Under the pieces are notes generated by a model. That model saw only the letters and a list, made by a program, of their open reading frames with translations. It had not been told where the DNA came from and ran no database searches. From Xanthobacteraceae bacterium (GTDB lineage Bacteria; Pseudomonadota; Alphaproteobacteria; Rhizobiales; Xanthobacteraceae), in the NCBI GenBank assembly GCA_030037185.1, contig JASHRR010000851.1:1-8197 (forward strand): a stretch of DNA of 8,197 nt. The letters run 5' to 3'. Made by a program: the position numbers and the translations under genes. Shown piece after piece: positions 1-8,197 of the stretch (its first letter is position 1; the number at the start of each line of letters is the position of its first letter).

Positions 1-552
1 GATTGCTTCGAGATCGGGCGCCGGACGTTCCTGAGCTCGCTGCTGCGCCCCCGTGCCGACCGTATTCTGTTCGCTGCCACTAAGGCGGATCACCTCCATC
101 ACACCAGTCATGACCGGCTGGAGGCGATCCTTCGCCGCATGGTCGAACGTGCGATTGCACGCGCCGACGTGGCCGGCGCTGCCATTGACGTGATCGCGCT
201 TGCGGCGGTGCGCGCGACGCGCGAAGCCGAGGTCCGGCAGGGCGGTGCAACGCTTCCCTGCATTGTCGGCGTGCCGGCGGCCCGCGAGCGTTCCTCCGGC
301 GGTAAGACGTTCGACGGCATGAGCGAAGTTGCGGTGTTCCCGGGTGAGCTTCCGGACGATCCGGACGCCCTGTTCGCGCCGGGCGCAGTGCCCTTCCGCG
401 GCCTGACGGCGGCAGGCGCGGAGGAAGCCGATTTCCGCTTCGTCGCCTTTCGTCCGCCGCCGCTCGAAAGAAGTGGTGACGGCGTGCCGGCGCTACCCCA
501 TATTCGGCTTGACCGTGCGCTACAATTCCTGATCGGAGACCGGCTCGCCTGA
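1..552 (+). CDS. ycjX: YcjX family GTP-binding protein (DUF463), C-terminal part; 5' end outside window
   Basis: The frame is open from base 1 to a TGA at 550-552, giving 183 residues of a protein whose family is usually about 460-490 aa, so the N-terminal half (P-loop, switch regions) lies upstream. Near the start, residues 22-32 read ILFAATKADHL. TKAD (27-30) is the G4 guanine-specificity motif (N/T-K-x-D) of P-loop GTPases, in the form typical of YcjX. The protein ends in LDRALQFLIGDRLA, a normal-looking family C-terminus, so the gene is intact at its 3' end. YcjX is a P-loop NTPase of the heat/envelope-stress-associated YcjX-YcjF pair, and its exact role is not settled. The next chromosomal gene in the same direction is the YcjF-like partner (992-2041), but about 430 bases of IscB-element sequence separate the two where the spacing is normally short. 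An internal ATG at 139 is not the start, because the G4 motif lies upstream of it. Confidence 0.9.
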   Translation, partial: DCFEIGRRTFLSSLLRPRADRILFAATKADHLHHTSHDRLEAILRRMVERAIARADVAGAAIDVIALAAVRATREAEVRQGGATLPCIVGVPAARERSSGGKTFDGMSEVAVFPGELPDDPDALFAPGAVPFRGLTAAGAEEADFRFVAFRPPPLERSGDGVPALPHIRLDRALQFLIGDRLA

Positions 553-553
553 A

Positions 554-713
554 GGCCCGCGGGGGCGCTTCGTTAGGCTGCGGGCTCTGGAAAGCACGGC
601 TTAACACGGGATTAGGCACGAAACGGGTCTTGCGCAAACACGCCCTGCAACATTGCGGACGGAGATGCAGGTGAGCTCACGAGGCCTTCCAGGCCTCATC
701 GGAGTAGCTGAAG
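554..713 (+). ncRNA. Candidate omega RNA (HEARO) region, possibly degenerate
   Basis: In IscB loci the guide-carrying omega RNA is encoded immediately upstream of the iscB start and is about 150-250 nt. This 160-nt stretch sits exactly there and has matching secondary structure. The stems are 554-560 with 580-586 (seven pairs, one of them G-U), CCTGCA 644-649 with TGCAGG 666-671, a perfect ten-base palindrome GTGAGCTCAC (671-680), and GAGGCCT 681-687 with AGGCCTC 691-697 around a three-base loop. No protein reading in it looks real. By position the guide segment would correspond to the last bases of ycjX. Placement and structure are seen; identity as omega RNA is inference, and no covariance search was done. 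Whether it is still transcribed or functional cannot be told. Confidence 0.42.
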
Positions 714-974
714 TTGGCAGTCTTTGTTTTGGACAACCGCAACAAACCGCTGATGCCGTGCTGCCAAAAGCGCCTGCTTCTCACGCGCGGCCGGGCCGTT
801 GTGCATCCCCGCCACCCCTTGACGATTTGCTTGAAGGACCGCGTCGGGGGCAATGCCGGCCCGTGTTCTGTCTGCGCGAGACCGCTCACCGGGGACGGCA
901 GATCAAGTCCTGCAGACTTTCTCCACCGCGCGGACCGCCTGGCGGCCCGCACTTGCTTCCCCGGCCGAAGGGGT
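714..974 (+). pseudogene. iscB: iscB remnant: N-terminal PLMP domain fused to a C-terminal trace, RuvC/HNH core deleted
   Basis: Starting at a TTG, the first ~47 residues begin MAVFVLDNRNKPLMP and continue with LLLTRGRAVVH and LTICLKDRVGG. This is the N-terminal domain of IscB (the RRXRR/PLMP region), with PLMP at residues 12-15 (747-758). The stretch between PLMP and the RGRAVVH segment looks about two residues short of the usual form. After base ~854 the RuvC-I motif (DPGS-like) expected next is absent. Further on, KSCRL in frame 2 (905-919), one extra base (920), then LHRADRLA in frame 3 (921-944) restores the family's C-terminal C-R-L-L-x-R-A-D pattern. Intact IscB is roughly 400-500 aa, so the catalytic RuvC and HNH parts are gone. 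The frame ends at TGA 993-995, overlapping the ycjF ATG. A weak GGAG (701-704) precedes the TTG. The N-terminal match is strong; the C-terminal trace is moderate. Confidence 0.72.
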
Positions 975-980
975 CTTACC

Positions 981-986
981 GGGAGG
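981..986 (+). promoter_or_regulatory. Shine-Dalgarno site setting the ycjF start at 992
   Basis: GGGAGG lies five bases before ATG 992, the best ribosome-binding match in the area. It argues against the upstream in-frame ATG at 653, whose extra 113 residues would run through the IscB-element DNA. It directly follows the right-end-like hairpin, so it may be at or near the element boundary. Confidence 0.6.
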
Positions 987-991
987 ATCGG

Positions 992-2041
992 ATGAACCAA
1001 GCCCACAAGCCTGCGGTATTCCGGCTCGACGACCCCGGCATCGTCGTCACGCCCGCGAAGGAACCGCGCCACATCGCGCCGGCCGCCAGTAACGCGCCGG
1101 CGGTCGAGGCTCTTGCGCCGCCCCCGTCGCACCGCCGTGCGCCATGGGCAGGTATATTCTGGGTCTCGGCCGCGGGCCTCATGCTGCTCGCGACCGGGCT
1201 CGGCATCGCCGATCTGATCGAGGACCTCCTCAATCGCGCCGCCTGGCTCGGCGGCATCGGTGCCGCATTGGCGACCGCCGCGGCGGTCGCGCTTCTCGCA
1301 ATTGTGACGCGGGAGGCACTCGGCCTCGCCAGGCTCGCCGCCATCGACAGCTTGCGGCAGCGCGCCGCCGCGATCCTGGTGAGCGACGACCGCAAGGCCG
1401 GCCGCGCGCTCGGTCGCGATCTCATCGCCTTGACGAGCCGCATGCCGGGTCTTGCCTGCGCCCGGGCGCGGCTCGAGAGCCATCTCGGCGACATTATCGA
1501 CGGCGGCGATCTCGTTCGCCTGAGCGAGCGTGAGCTGATGGCGCCGATCGATGCCGAGGCAAGACGTTTAGTCGCCGCTGCCGCCAAACGGGTGTCGGTG
1601 GTGACCGCCGTGAGCCCGCGTGCGGCGGTCGACATGCTGTTCGTTCTTCTGACCGCCCTCGGCCTGGTGCGACGGCTGGCGCTTCTTTACGGCGGGCGTC
1701 CCGGCACGCTCGGGCTCATCAAGCTCATGCGCTACGCGGTGTCGCACGTCGCGTTGACGGGCGGCATGGCGGCGAGCGACAGCCTGATCCAGCAGGTCAT
1801 CGGCCACGGCATCGCGGCCAAGCTATCCGCCCGGCTCGGCGAAGGCGTCCTCAATGGCCTGCTCACGGCGCGGCTCGGCCTGGCCGCCGTCGAGGCAACG
1901 CGGCCGCTTCCGTTCACGGCGCTTCGGCAACCCGCCCTCAACGACATTGCAGGTTCGCTGTTGCGGGGGAGCGCAATTGGCGGCACCAACGAAACTTTGC
2001 AGGATCAAAGTCATGACCGTCACCGCGGTTCGAACTCTTAA
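992..2041 (+). CDS. ycjF: TIGR01620/YcjF family (DUF697) membrane protein
   Basis: The product is 349 aa. A proline/alanine-rich N-terminal tail of about 50 residues is followed by two transmembrane helices (about 52-72, WAGIFWVSAAGLMLLATGL, and 84-105). A charged helical cytoplasmic region with LAAIDSLRQRA follows at 115-125. The C-terminal DUF697-like part (about 205-310) holds hydrophobic segments around 212-228 and the conserved run RLGEGVLNGLLTARLG (281-296) followed by RPLPF (304-308). The family is the membrane partner of the YcjX GTPase, and the partner gene lies just upstream. Start 992 is chosen for its GGGAGG site and because upstream in-frame sequence is mobile-element DNA. The final ~25 residues after SLLRGSAI are polar and unlike the family; they overlap the presumed tctC start (2013). 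Spacing from ycjX is stretched by the IscB remnant, so co-transcription may be weakened or depend on read-through. Confidence 0.86.
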   Translation: MNQAHKPAVFRLDDPGIVVTPAKEPRHIAPAASNAPAVEALAPPPSHRRAPWAGIFWVSAAGLMLLATGLGIADLIEDLLNRAAWLGGIGAALATAAAVALLAIVTREALGLARLAAIDSLRQRAAAILVSDDRKAGRALGRDLIALTSRMPGLACARARLESHLGDIIDGGDLVRLSERELMAPIDAEARRLVAAAAKRVSVVTAVSPRAAVDMLFVLLTALGLVRRLALLYGGRPGTLGLIKLMRYAVSHVALTGGMAASDSLIQQVIGHGIAAKLSARLGEGVLNGLLTARLGLAAVEATRPLPFTALRQPALNDIAGSLLRGSAIGGTNETLQDQSHDRHRGSNS

Positions 2042-5813: not shown

Positions 5814-8197
5814 TTAATAATCCTTCAGCAAGCGCTCGATGTAGTCGAGTTCGAACTGCGGGCGGAACGCTTCGCCGAAACGGCGGCGAAGCTCTTCAAG
5901 GATCCGGCGTGCGCGCTGCGCATCGATCTCGCCCGGCACCTTGACCGTGGTGTCGTCGCCGTAATCGCGTCCTCGCAGGGGCCGGCCGAGCGGGTCGGTC
6001 TCTTGCTGGGCGCGATTCGCCGGACCGAGGCGGCCGGGCTGGCCGTAGGGTCCGGGCCCTTGGTTCTGTCCCATCTGCTGCTGAAGCTGTTGGGCGAGTC
6101 CCTGTGCGCCCTTGCGCATGGCATCGAGTGCGCGACCCTGGCCATCGACGGCGCGGTTCGAATCGCCTTCGCCGAGCGCGCTTTCCGCATCACCCATGGC
6201 GTTGCCGGCATCCGCAAGATCGTCGCCGCCCTGGCCGTCTTGGCCCTGCTGACCTTGCTGACCTGGTTGACCTTGTTGACCCGGCTGACCCTGCTGGCCC
6301 TCTTGACCCTTCTGGTTCTGGCCGAGACCGCGCTTCTTCATCTCCTCAAGGAATTTCTTCAATTCCTCGCGCAGCGCCTGCTGGTTCTCGCGCAGCTCAC
6401 TGAAGGCATTCGGATCACCGCGCTCGCCCTGTTGGTCTTGTTGGCCTTGCTGACCGCGTTGGCCTTGCTGACCGCGCTGCCCTCGCTGACCCTGCTGGCC
6501 GCGCTGCCCGCGCTGCTGGTCCTGGCCCTGGCGGAAGGTCTTATCGCGCAATTGCTGCTGCTTGCGAATCATGTCGCTAAGCTCATCGAGCATCGCCATG
6601 TCGTCGTCGGCATCCTGGCCGTTCTGGCCCGGCCGCGCCATCTGCAGGTTCTGCATCATCTGCGACAGCTGATCGAGCAGCTGGCGGGCAGCATCGCGAT
6701 TGCCGGACTTGGCAAGCTGCTCCATGCGGTCGAGCAGGCTCTTGAGGTCCTGAGATTGCATCATGCGCGAATTGCGATCGAGCGGACGCGCCATGTCCGG
6801 GTTCTTGCGCAGTTCCTCCGCGAGCGCCTGGAGAAACTGGTCCATTGCGGCGCGCAACTCGTCCATCAGCCGCTTGAGTTCCTCGTCGCTGGCGCCGCGT
6901 TCGAGGGCATTGCGCAGCGCTTCCTCGGCGTTGCGCAGGCGCGCCGAGGCGTCGGACATATTGCCGTCCTCAAGCATCGTGGCGTAAGCCCACATCTGCT
7001 TCACCACCTCGCGCAAGTCGTCGTCGCTCTTGGCTTGCGACAACTGCCAGTACAGCGACCGCAGGCCGAGGTACTGACCGAGCTCCGGCATGAATTTTTC
7101 CGGCGCGATGGCGAGCGCATCGAGGGCGATCAGCACGCGGTCCCGATTCTCCGCATCCAGCGCCAGCTCGCGGCGCTGCTCGATGATCGCACGGGCGAGC
7201 TGTTTGACGAAGGGACGCTCCGGCAAGCGGAAGGTATGCGGCGCACTGGTGCCCTCGTTGTTGGCCTCATCGCGAGCCGTGAGCGTCATCGTGACCTCGG
7301 CGCCGGCCCAGGGATGATCGCTCAAATCCTTGGTGGTCTGGCCAACGCCGTTCTTGACCCGCGCTTGCGGCAGAACCAGTTGCATCTCGGGCGGCCCGAA
7401 TAACGGGCGCGGTCCCGACGCGTCGTCTGCTTTCGCCTCGCCGGCGTCCTTAAGGGCGAACAAGGCCTTGGCTTCGACGACGCCGTAATCGTCTTCCATC
7501 TTGTAGTTGAGCTGCAGCGATCCGCTCGGCTGGGGCTCCGGATCCTTGGTGAGCGCGATCACCGGCGGCGTGTCCGGTATGGCGTTGAACGCGTAAGTGG
7601 GATCTTCGTCGCTCAGGCCGTGCACCGCAGCGGTGCCGCGGTCGCTGATGATGTAGCGGTGTTCCTCGGTGCCGGCCGGCGCCTGCGGTCGCTGCTCGGC
7701 GGGCTGTTCCGCAACCCCGCCGGTCGTCGCCACGTCGAAATGGACCTTGCCGCTGGCGCGGATCACCAGAACGCTGCCGGCCGGCACGGAAGCGACCGAC
7801 GCTTGGCCGCGTTCGCCTGGCCGCAGGCCGGGCAGAATAACAGGCGGCTTGAGGGTGTAAGTCGGCGGCGACACCCAGGCATCGAGCCGGAAATTCGTCG
7901 GCGTCACCACGCCATGCCAGTCGAAGGCCGCCGCAATGCGCCGGACGCGGTCGCCTCCCGCCGCAATAAAGGTCGTCACCACAAGCAGCAGCACCAGGGC
8001 ACGCGCAGCGACCGGATCGCGCAGGTCGAGGCGCGGCGCCGGACGGCCGACCCTGAGCGTGCGCGCCGCCAACAGGGCGCGCTCGACATGGGCGCGCCAC
8101 AGAGCCAGCGACAACGGGTCGGACTTCGGGGTCGCAAGTTCATCGCTGATCGTCGTCGCCGGACGGTGGGGCAGGCCGGCATTGCGGTCGAGCCGGC
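5814..8197 (-). CDS. TIGR02302 family / DUF4175 membrane protein, 5' end outside window
   Basis: The frame is open from the window edge to TAA 5814-5816, giving 793 residues. A TTG at 8114 is not the start, because the sequence before it (RLDRNAGLPHRPATTISDEL) is conserved family sequence that runs off the window; full members are about 850-900 aa. Visible in order: the RNAGLPHRPAT block; LWRAHVERALLAARTLRVG; a transmembrane helix around fragment residues 66-81 (ALVLLLVVTTFIAAGG); an extracytoplasmic domain with beta-rich segments including YKMEDDYGV (about 7478-7508); FRLPERPFVKQLARAIIEQR; and a long helical, glutamate/methionine-rich stretch likely to form coiled coils. Two Gly-Gln-rich collagen-like tracts follow, then a C-terminal RRRFGEAFRPQFELDYIERL block typical of the family. 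The function is unknown; the family is nearly confined to alphaproteobacteria, and a cell-envelope role is inferred from topology only. Confidence 0.9.
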   Translation of the reverse strand, partial: RLDRNAGLPHRPATTISDELATPKSDPLSLALWRAHVERALLAARTLRVGRPAPRLDLRDPVAARALVLLLVVTTFIAAGGDRVRRIAAAFDWHGVVTPTNFRLDAWVSPPTYTLKPPVILPGLRPGERGQASVASVPAGSVLVIRASGKVHFDVATTGGVAEQPAEQRPQAPAGTEEHRYIISDRGTAAVHGLSDEDPTYAFNAIPDTPPVIALTKDPEPQPSGSLQLNYKMEDDYGVVEAKALFALKDAGEAKADDASGPRPLFGPPEMQLVLPQARVKNGVGQTTKDLSDHPWAGAEVTMTLTARDEANNEGTSAPHTFRLPERPFVKQLARAIIEQRRELALDAENRDRVLIALDALAIAPEKFMPELGQYLGLRSLYWQLSQAKSDDDLREVVKQMWAYATMLEDGNMSDASARLRNAEEALRNALERGASDEELKRLMDELRAAMDQFLQALAEELRKNPDMARPLDRNSRMMQSQDLKSLLDRMEQLAKSGNRDAARQLLDQLSQMMQNLQMARPGQNGQDADDDMAMLDELSDMIRKQQQLRDKTFRQGQDQQRGQRGQQGQRGQRGQQGQRGQQGQQDQQGERGDPNAFSELRENQQALREELKKFLEEMKKRGLGQNQKGQEGQQGQPGQQGQPGQQGQQGQDGQGGDDLADAGNAMGDAESALGEGDSNRAVDGQGRALDAMRKGAQGLAQQLQQQMGQNQGPGPYGQPGRLGPANRAQQETDPLGRPLRGRDYGDDTTVKVPGEIDAQRARRILEELRRRFGEAFRPQFELDYIERLLKDY
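6224..6325 (-). repeat. Gly-Gln collagen-like tract in the DUF4175 gene, C-terminal block
   Basis: The minus-strand frame encodes GQEGQQGQPGQQGQPGQQG and similar Gly-x-x units. The DNA is a tandem-like array of nine-base units (CAG/GGT variants) prone to slippage. The tract separates the LRENQQALREELKKFLEEM coiled-coil segment from the acidic GDDLADAGNAMGDAES segment. Confidence 0.75.
6424..6534 (-). repeat. Gly-Gln-Arg collagen-like tract in the DUF4175 gene, N-terminal block
   Basis: Encodes RGQRGQQGQRGQRGQQGQ-type Gly-x-x repeats, basic through arginine, unlike the proline-containing second tract. It follows the acidic DDDMAMLDELSDMIRKQQQL helix. The repetitive DNA likely varies in copy number between strains. 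Confidence 0.75.

Follow-up and report, generated by a model that had tools for sequence, protein, structure and literature searches.

A remnant of an IscB/HEARO element immediately upstream of the ATGA at the ycjX-ycjF junction

HEARO elements reportedly insert at ATGA or GTGA, an observation attributed to Weinberg in 2009, and an Allochromatium IscB uses ATGA. IshB consists of a PLMP domain plus an HNH domain. According to one published study, target cleavage by an IsrB occurs where a TTGA or ATGA motif is present (PMC9581776). Another places HEARO RNAs 5' of the gene, with a 5' spacer as the reprogrammable part, and states that few HEARO nucleases were found with TnpA (PMC9755519). The PLMP motif is described in a third study as contacting both RuvC and the omega RNA and stabilising the complex (PMC9640706). 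By title, none of the literature matches listed concerned miniature IscB elements, a weak negative that covers titles only.

The window analysed here is a stretch of 8,197 nucleotides from a Xanthobacteraceae bacterium (GenBank assembly GCA_030037185.1, contig JASHRR010000851.1). In it, ycjX and ycjF are separated by 443 bp that come from an IscB/HEARO element and lie immediately 5' of an ATGA (Table 1). The initial annotation had placed a miniature IscB element at 553-980; the insertion is real, although it does not resemble a working miniature element, and 549-991 are its better boundaries. What is left of it is diverged and comprises the 3' part of the omega RNA, the PLMP domain, a RuvC-I-side scrap and an eroded right end. 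The losses comprise the left end together with roughly the first 100 nt of omega RNA, a stretch between PLMP and the scrap, and a core of about 1 kb.

Table 1. Features of the ycjX-ycjF region, with positions in the window
Feature	Position	Strand	Basis
ycjX (DUF463), 3' part	1..552	+	PF04317, E 2.7e-47
IscB/HEARO insertion remnant, whole, 443 bp	549..991	+	alignment to the L101 empty site; left boundary uncertain by a few bases
Degenerate omega-RNA sequence without the first ~100 nt	552..686	+	local alignment to L052 103-255; no Rfam match
Remnant of the N-terminal PLMP (RRXRR) domain of IscB, shorter than in relatives by two residues	714..855	+	PF14239, NF040563, alignment
IscB scrap from the RuvC-I side (L001 residues 77-93), out of frame with PLMP	857..907	+	1/256 controls as high
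Putative C-terminal CRLLxRAD trace of the initial annotation, doubtful	911..944	+	not above controls
Eroded right end	945..991	+	anchored test rank 1/94; unanchored, 6/511 controls as good
Shine-Dalgarno-like GGGAGGA, 4 bases before the ycjF ATG	981..987	+	once on the window + strand
ATGA, insertion site motif and ycjF start	992..995	+	ATGA at the right ends of 46/49 relatives
ycjF (DUF697, TIGR01620)	992..2041	+	profile matches, DUF697 E 1.2e-43

The ycjX-ycjF junction and its empty counterpart

Relatives of the host locus were identified through YcjF in two steps. In the class of an Altererythrobacter MAG (G001; Alphaproteobacteria), matches at E 1e-30 were obtained in 24 of 385 genomes, the best of them (G362) with 61% identity. 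The family of G362 gave matches at E 1e-60 in 294 of 391 genomes, and the best of these, G406, is the closest host-type genome found, its YcjF being 87% identical to that of the window over residues 33-340. A single YcjF protein, P0032, reaches 99% identity. The G406 locus (L101) is an empty site. Window positions 1-553 and 992 onward align there to adjoining DNA, and the junction reads GACCGGCTCACATGAACC, in which the stop codon of ycjX and the start codon of ycjF share an ATGA. The same 4-base overlap is present in 29 of the 30 YcjF loci read (L081 and L101-L129, from the 294 matching genomes); in the remaining locus, L108, the ycjX stop is also within ATGA, and the scripted ycjF start lies 10 bases past the stop. 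Because the two genes overlap at this point in relatives, the window has 443 extra bases directly before its ATGA. The empty site and the overlap identify the region as an insertion between genes that normally touch. A spacer of about 430 bases conserved in related genera, which had been named as grounds for rejecting the element, was not encountered, since ycjX and ycjF overlap directly in 29 of the 30 loci.

Counted from a TTG at 653, the ycjF reading frame runs without a stop across most of the remnant (653-2041), so that a longer YcjF could be annotated by mistake. Farther along the window, a DUF4175 protein encoded at 5814-8114 on the minus strand carries a collagen-like Gly-Gln-rich stretch, with a collagen match below the cut-off.

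Remains of the element and its intact relatives

The genome collection yielded 170 confirmed relatives, from which 80 loci were kept for comparison. Full relative elements are about 1.7 kb long and carry a left end, omega RNA, an IscB of ~450 aa, a right-end hairpin and ATGA; both ends were located by pattern in 45 of the 80 loci, with a median of 1699 bp. Four elements with both ends are shorter than 1500 bp, namely L007 (523 bp), L037 (897 bp), L078 (1074 bp) and L064 (1414 bp). In L007 (4724-5246), HEARO RNA was detected at the gathering threshold and PLMP lies in an 81-codon frame. No second L007 copy was found in its own genome, so this single copy does not show that a mini-element has spread to several copies. 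The relatives do include miniature IscB elements that keep both ends, among which the window does not count, and movement in trans could be tested in these four. The Sulfobacillus genome of L078 contains further deleted IscB copies. Of two deleted elements in a Sulfobacillus MAG (G1153), one (L165, contig C139, ~735 bp) has a long omega RNA, has lost the PLMP start and keeps a C-terminal part, and the other (L166, contig C126, ~507 bp) has a shortened omega RNA; each sits before ATGA.

The IscB-type N-terminus with PLMP, for which the lack of any IscB profile match had been given as the refuting outcome, stands. Positions 714-855 matched PF14239 (RRXRR) above its cut-off (E 9.8e-9; 35.7 bits, cut-off 25) and NF040563 (IscB) over model positions 1-46 of 314 (E 1.4e-10; 40.8 bits, short of the full-length cut-off of 175). 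Matches of this segment to solved IscB chains were weak (7 sequences, E 0.08-0.3), and a protein search returned 33 candidates, 31 of them homologous RRXRR proteins, each labelled RRXRR. Beyond PLMP we found a further piece of IscB that had gone unnoticed. It reads RPVFCLRETAHRGRQIK, is identical at 11 of 17 residues to L001 IscB residues 77-93, and has an average score matched by a single one of 256 control stretches. This 17-residue scrap is the sole RuvC trace of the split RuvC and HNH typical of IscB, and no RuvC or HNH family match was obtained in two of the three forward frames (the PLMP frame and the scrap frame). The proposed loss of the catalytic core is supported. The C-terminal CRLLxRAD trace did not hold up when read without removing any base, as 50 of 255 controls were as good by protein and 115 of 306 by DNA; it may be real, lying where expected, yet it is no evidence by itself.

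For the omega RNA, 51 non-redundant left-end-to-iscB sequences were drawn from the 64 relatives with a left end among 73 loci with enough upstream DNA. An nhmmer profile of this omega DNA gave no match in the window, and pairwise alignment with controls was therefore used. When 549-713 was aligned locally to the 51 relatives, the best score was 61 (L052) and the mean 27.6; neither value was reached by any of 336 controls taken from the window. The best alignment pairs 552-686 with 103-255 of L052; many other relatives cover less and a few align best elsewhere, so that the support comes mainly from L052 and a few others. The alignment starts near position 100 of the relatives, so the window lacks the left end as well as the initial ~100 nt of the omega RNA. 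The left-end motif GTCAACTACCCC, present with at most 2 substitutions in 64 of the 73 relatives with enough upstream DNA, had no plus-strand match before 1025 at up to 3 mismatches. A similar sequence with 3 mismatches lies on the other strand at 701-712, and the whole window has 8 such matches against 3.65 expected. Another sequence, CCGAGGGGA, is shared by 44 of the 51 relatives and is absent from the window.

The covariance model for HEARO (RF02033), suggested as a check on the upstream RNA, had no match in the window at a lax threshold, not even at E 10 in 400-730; the same RNA was found at the gathering threshold in 13 of the 14 relatives scanned, L062 being the exception. Folding of 553-722 was no better than that of shuffles (z 0.71), and Rfam matches to M23 and DUF3800-XI were below the gathering score and in coding stretches. 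A CRISPR-DR20 match at 2926-2961, also below the gathering score, lies inside a TctC receptor gene and is probably due to chance. The upstream omega RNA that had been postulated is thus present in its 3' part, and its first ~100 nt and an Rfam match are lacking. With the left-end motif not found and CCGAGGGGA lost as well, the idea that the RNA and both ends were kept is not supported.

Right ends of relatives were recognised by pattern in 49 of the 80 loci. An ATGA is located no more than 4 bases from where the pattern ends in 46 of these, a GTGA in 2 and neither in 1, although only the A before TGA is informative in the 46, because the pattern itself requires TGA. Some of the other 31 relatives have ATGA when read by eye (L023, L040, L061, L065), and in others the contig ends first or the pattern is absent. 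Compared with the relatives' right ends, the 50 bases preceding the ATGA at 992 gave a mean score of 17.3 (all sites 3.3, sd 3.9) and ranked first among 94 ATGA or GTGA sites on both strands, the site itself included, by mean and by maximum. The unanchored signal is weaker, with 6 of 511 control stretches as high. The right end proposed for the element is therefore present when anchored on this ATGA.

The pieces that remain do not fit a single internal deletion of ~1 kb, since at least three are needed, one on the left, one from PLMP to the scrap and one of ~1 kb after the scrap.

Probable fate of the insertion and possible consequences for ycjX and ycjF

A copy of the element would have inserted upstream of the ATGA at the ycjX/ycjF overlap, and the end of ycjX would have provided its guide. 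The copy has decayed and has lost the left end, ~100 nt of omega RNA, some of RuvC-I and almost all other parts of iscB. The remnant should neither move nor guide, because the left end and the 5' omega RNA are gone and the guide is the left flank, taken via the 5' end of the omega RNA. Its only present effect would be local, as a spacer, a ycjX stop and a ycjF 5' leader that contains a Shine-Dalgarno-like sequence and replaces the lost stop-start overlap. Taken as a whole, this account of a decayed IscB insertion at the ycjX/ycjF ATGA, immobile, without a usable guide and with a local effect only, is very probable. Neither an intermediate nor a sister copy of this insertion turned up, which counts against it, and a search of plasmid DNA with 540-1000 gave no match. 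The remnant is ordinary as a fossil; the empty site is unusually clean.

The remnant may act on its neighbours, since it keeps apart two genes that otherwise overlap, apparently provides the ycjX stop and places a putative Shine-Dalgarno sequence in front of ycjF. In L101 the native ycjX stop lies inside the ATGA overlap with ycjF, and judging from this empty site the TGA at 550-552 in the window most likely comes from element DNA. Its source could be either the loop of a left-end hairpin, for which GCCTGAAGGCC, occurring also in L033, is the candidate, or the middle of the omega RNA.

A stronger claim would be that the decayed right end has been selected as the ycjF ribosome-binding site and that the remnant is now functional host DNA. 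GGGAGGA has the position expected of such a site and is unique on the plus strand of the window, and the Shine-Dalgarno-like core is found at the right-end position in 0 of 46 relatives and in 493 of 8187 window 10-mers (6%). Set against this, it is one case, its motif was chosen after being seen, the chance of it is ~6% or more, and a promoter and terminator scan of 480-1060 found neither kind of site. The motif is at most suggestive of a repair of ycjF translation, and selection of the leader appears somewhat unlikely. The full sequence of events, in which an IscB element on an ATGA overlap splits the pair with both frames intact, its decaying right end becomes the ycjF ribosome-binding site and the fossil becomes a 5' leader, is unlikely.

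Of the two fates offered in the initial annotation, an inert fossil and a unit moved or used in trans, the former is favoured, because the left end, the first ~100 nt of omega RNA and CCGAGGGGA are missing and several deletions have occurred. A MITE-like mini-element with RNA and both ends, moved by a TnpA elsewhere, would agree with the recognisable right end and with a size resembling that of L007; it is very unlikely for a remnant that has neither a left end nor the 5' portion of its RNA. Two weak negatives point the same way. The PLMP frame of the window matched 0 of 397 genomes of the order, in a search without a positive control, and a search of G406 with window 1-2041 gave the flanks only, with 40 of 157 candidates scored. 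The IscB family had one weak match in G406, to the HNH part (40.2 bits, cut-off 175), and 9 of 14 control genomes also match below the cut-off.

About as improbable is a short PLMP-only or PLMP-HNH (IshB-like) protein made from 714-995. That frame is open for 93 codons and other short RRXRR proteins exist, but neither it nor the frame of the scrap has an HNH match. Past residue ~50 it shows only a sub-threshold C1_2 match, and the IscB scrap lies in another frame, so that its tail looks like frameshifted debris. With no above-threshold domain past that residue, 714-995 was rejected as a protein that is made. Chance resemblance in an ordinary intergenic spacer, which might be suggested by how weakly the omega and C-terminal sequences score with profiles or against controls, is refuted by the PLMP profile match, the empty site, the ATGA placement and the right-end rank together, and its probability is close to nil.

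Comparison with known IscB and HEARO elements

As a decayed insertion, the remnant provides a cleanly bounded example of how such elements enter operons. In 32 of 46 relatives (e.g. L052 and L078) the right-end ATGA opens a frame of at least 60 codons, compared with 562 of 1434 ATGAs of the same loci (p 3e-5, a rough value, the sites being non-independent and two neighbouring ATGs being allowed at the right end against one in the control). Since this ATGA frequently serves as a start codon or forms a stop-start overlap, an IscB insertion can spare both genes.

Among described systems, the locus belongs beside the IscB/HEARO (OMEGA) elements of the IS200/IS605 group, represented here by L052 and L077 from Leptospirillum and Sulfobacillus MAGs. 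It shares with them PLMP, an upstream omega sequence, and a right-end hairpin with ATGA after it; it differs in having no left end, no 5' omega RNA, little of RuvC, and no recognisable HNH or C-terminal domain. An IscB/HEARO-type locus (L071) also occurs in a record titled Chlamydia trachomatis MAG, a label that may be a binning error. Short RRXRR proteins compared by eye (P0002, P0013, P0015 and P0023) pass from PLMP to an IscB-like C-terminus through internal deletions similar to those of the window, but, unlike the window, their frames are open across the junction. The short elements L007, L037, L078 and L064 resemble the remnant in having lost part or most of iscB while keeping PLMP, the right end and ATGA. 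They retain the left end, and HEARO RNA reaches the gathering threshold in the two that were scanned, L007 and L064, whereas the window has neither.
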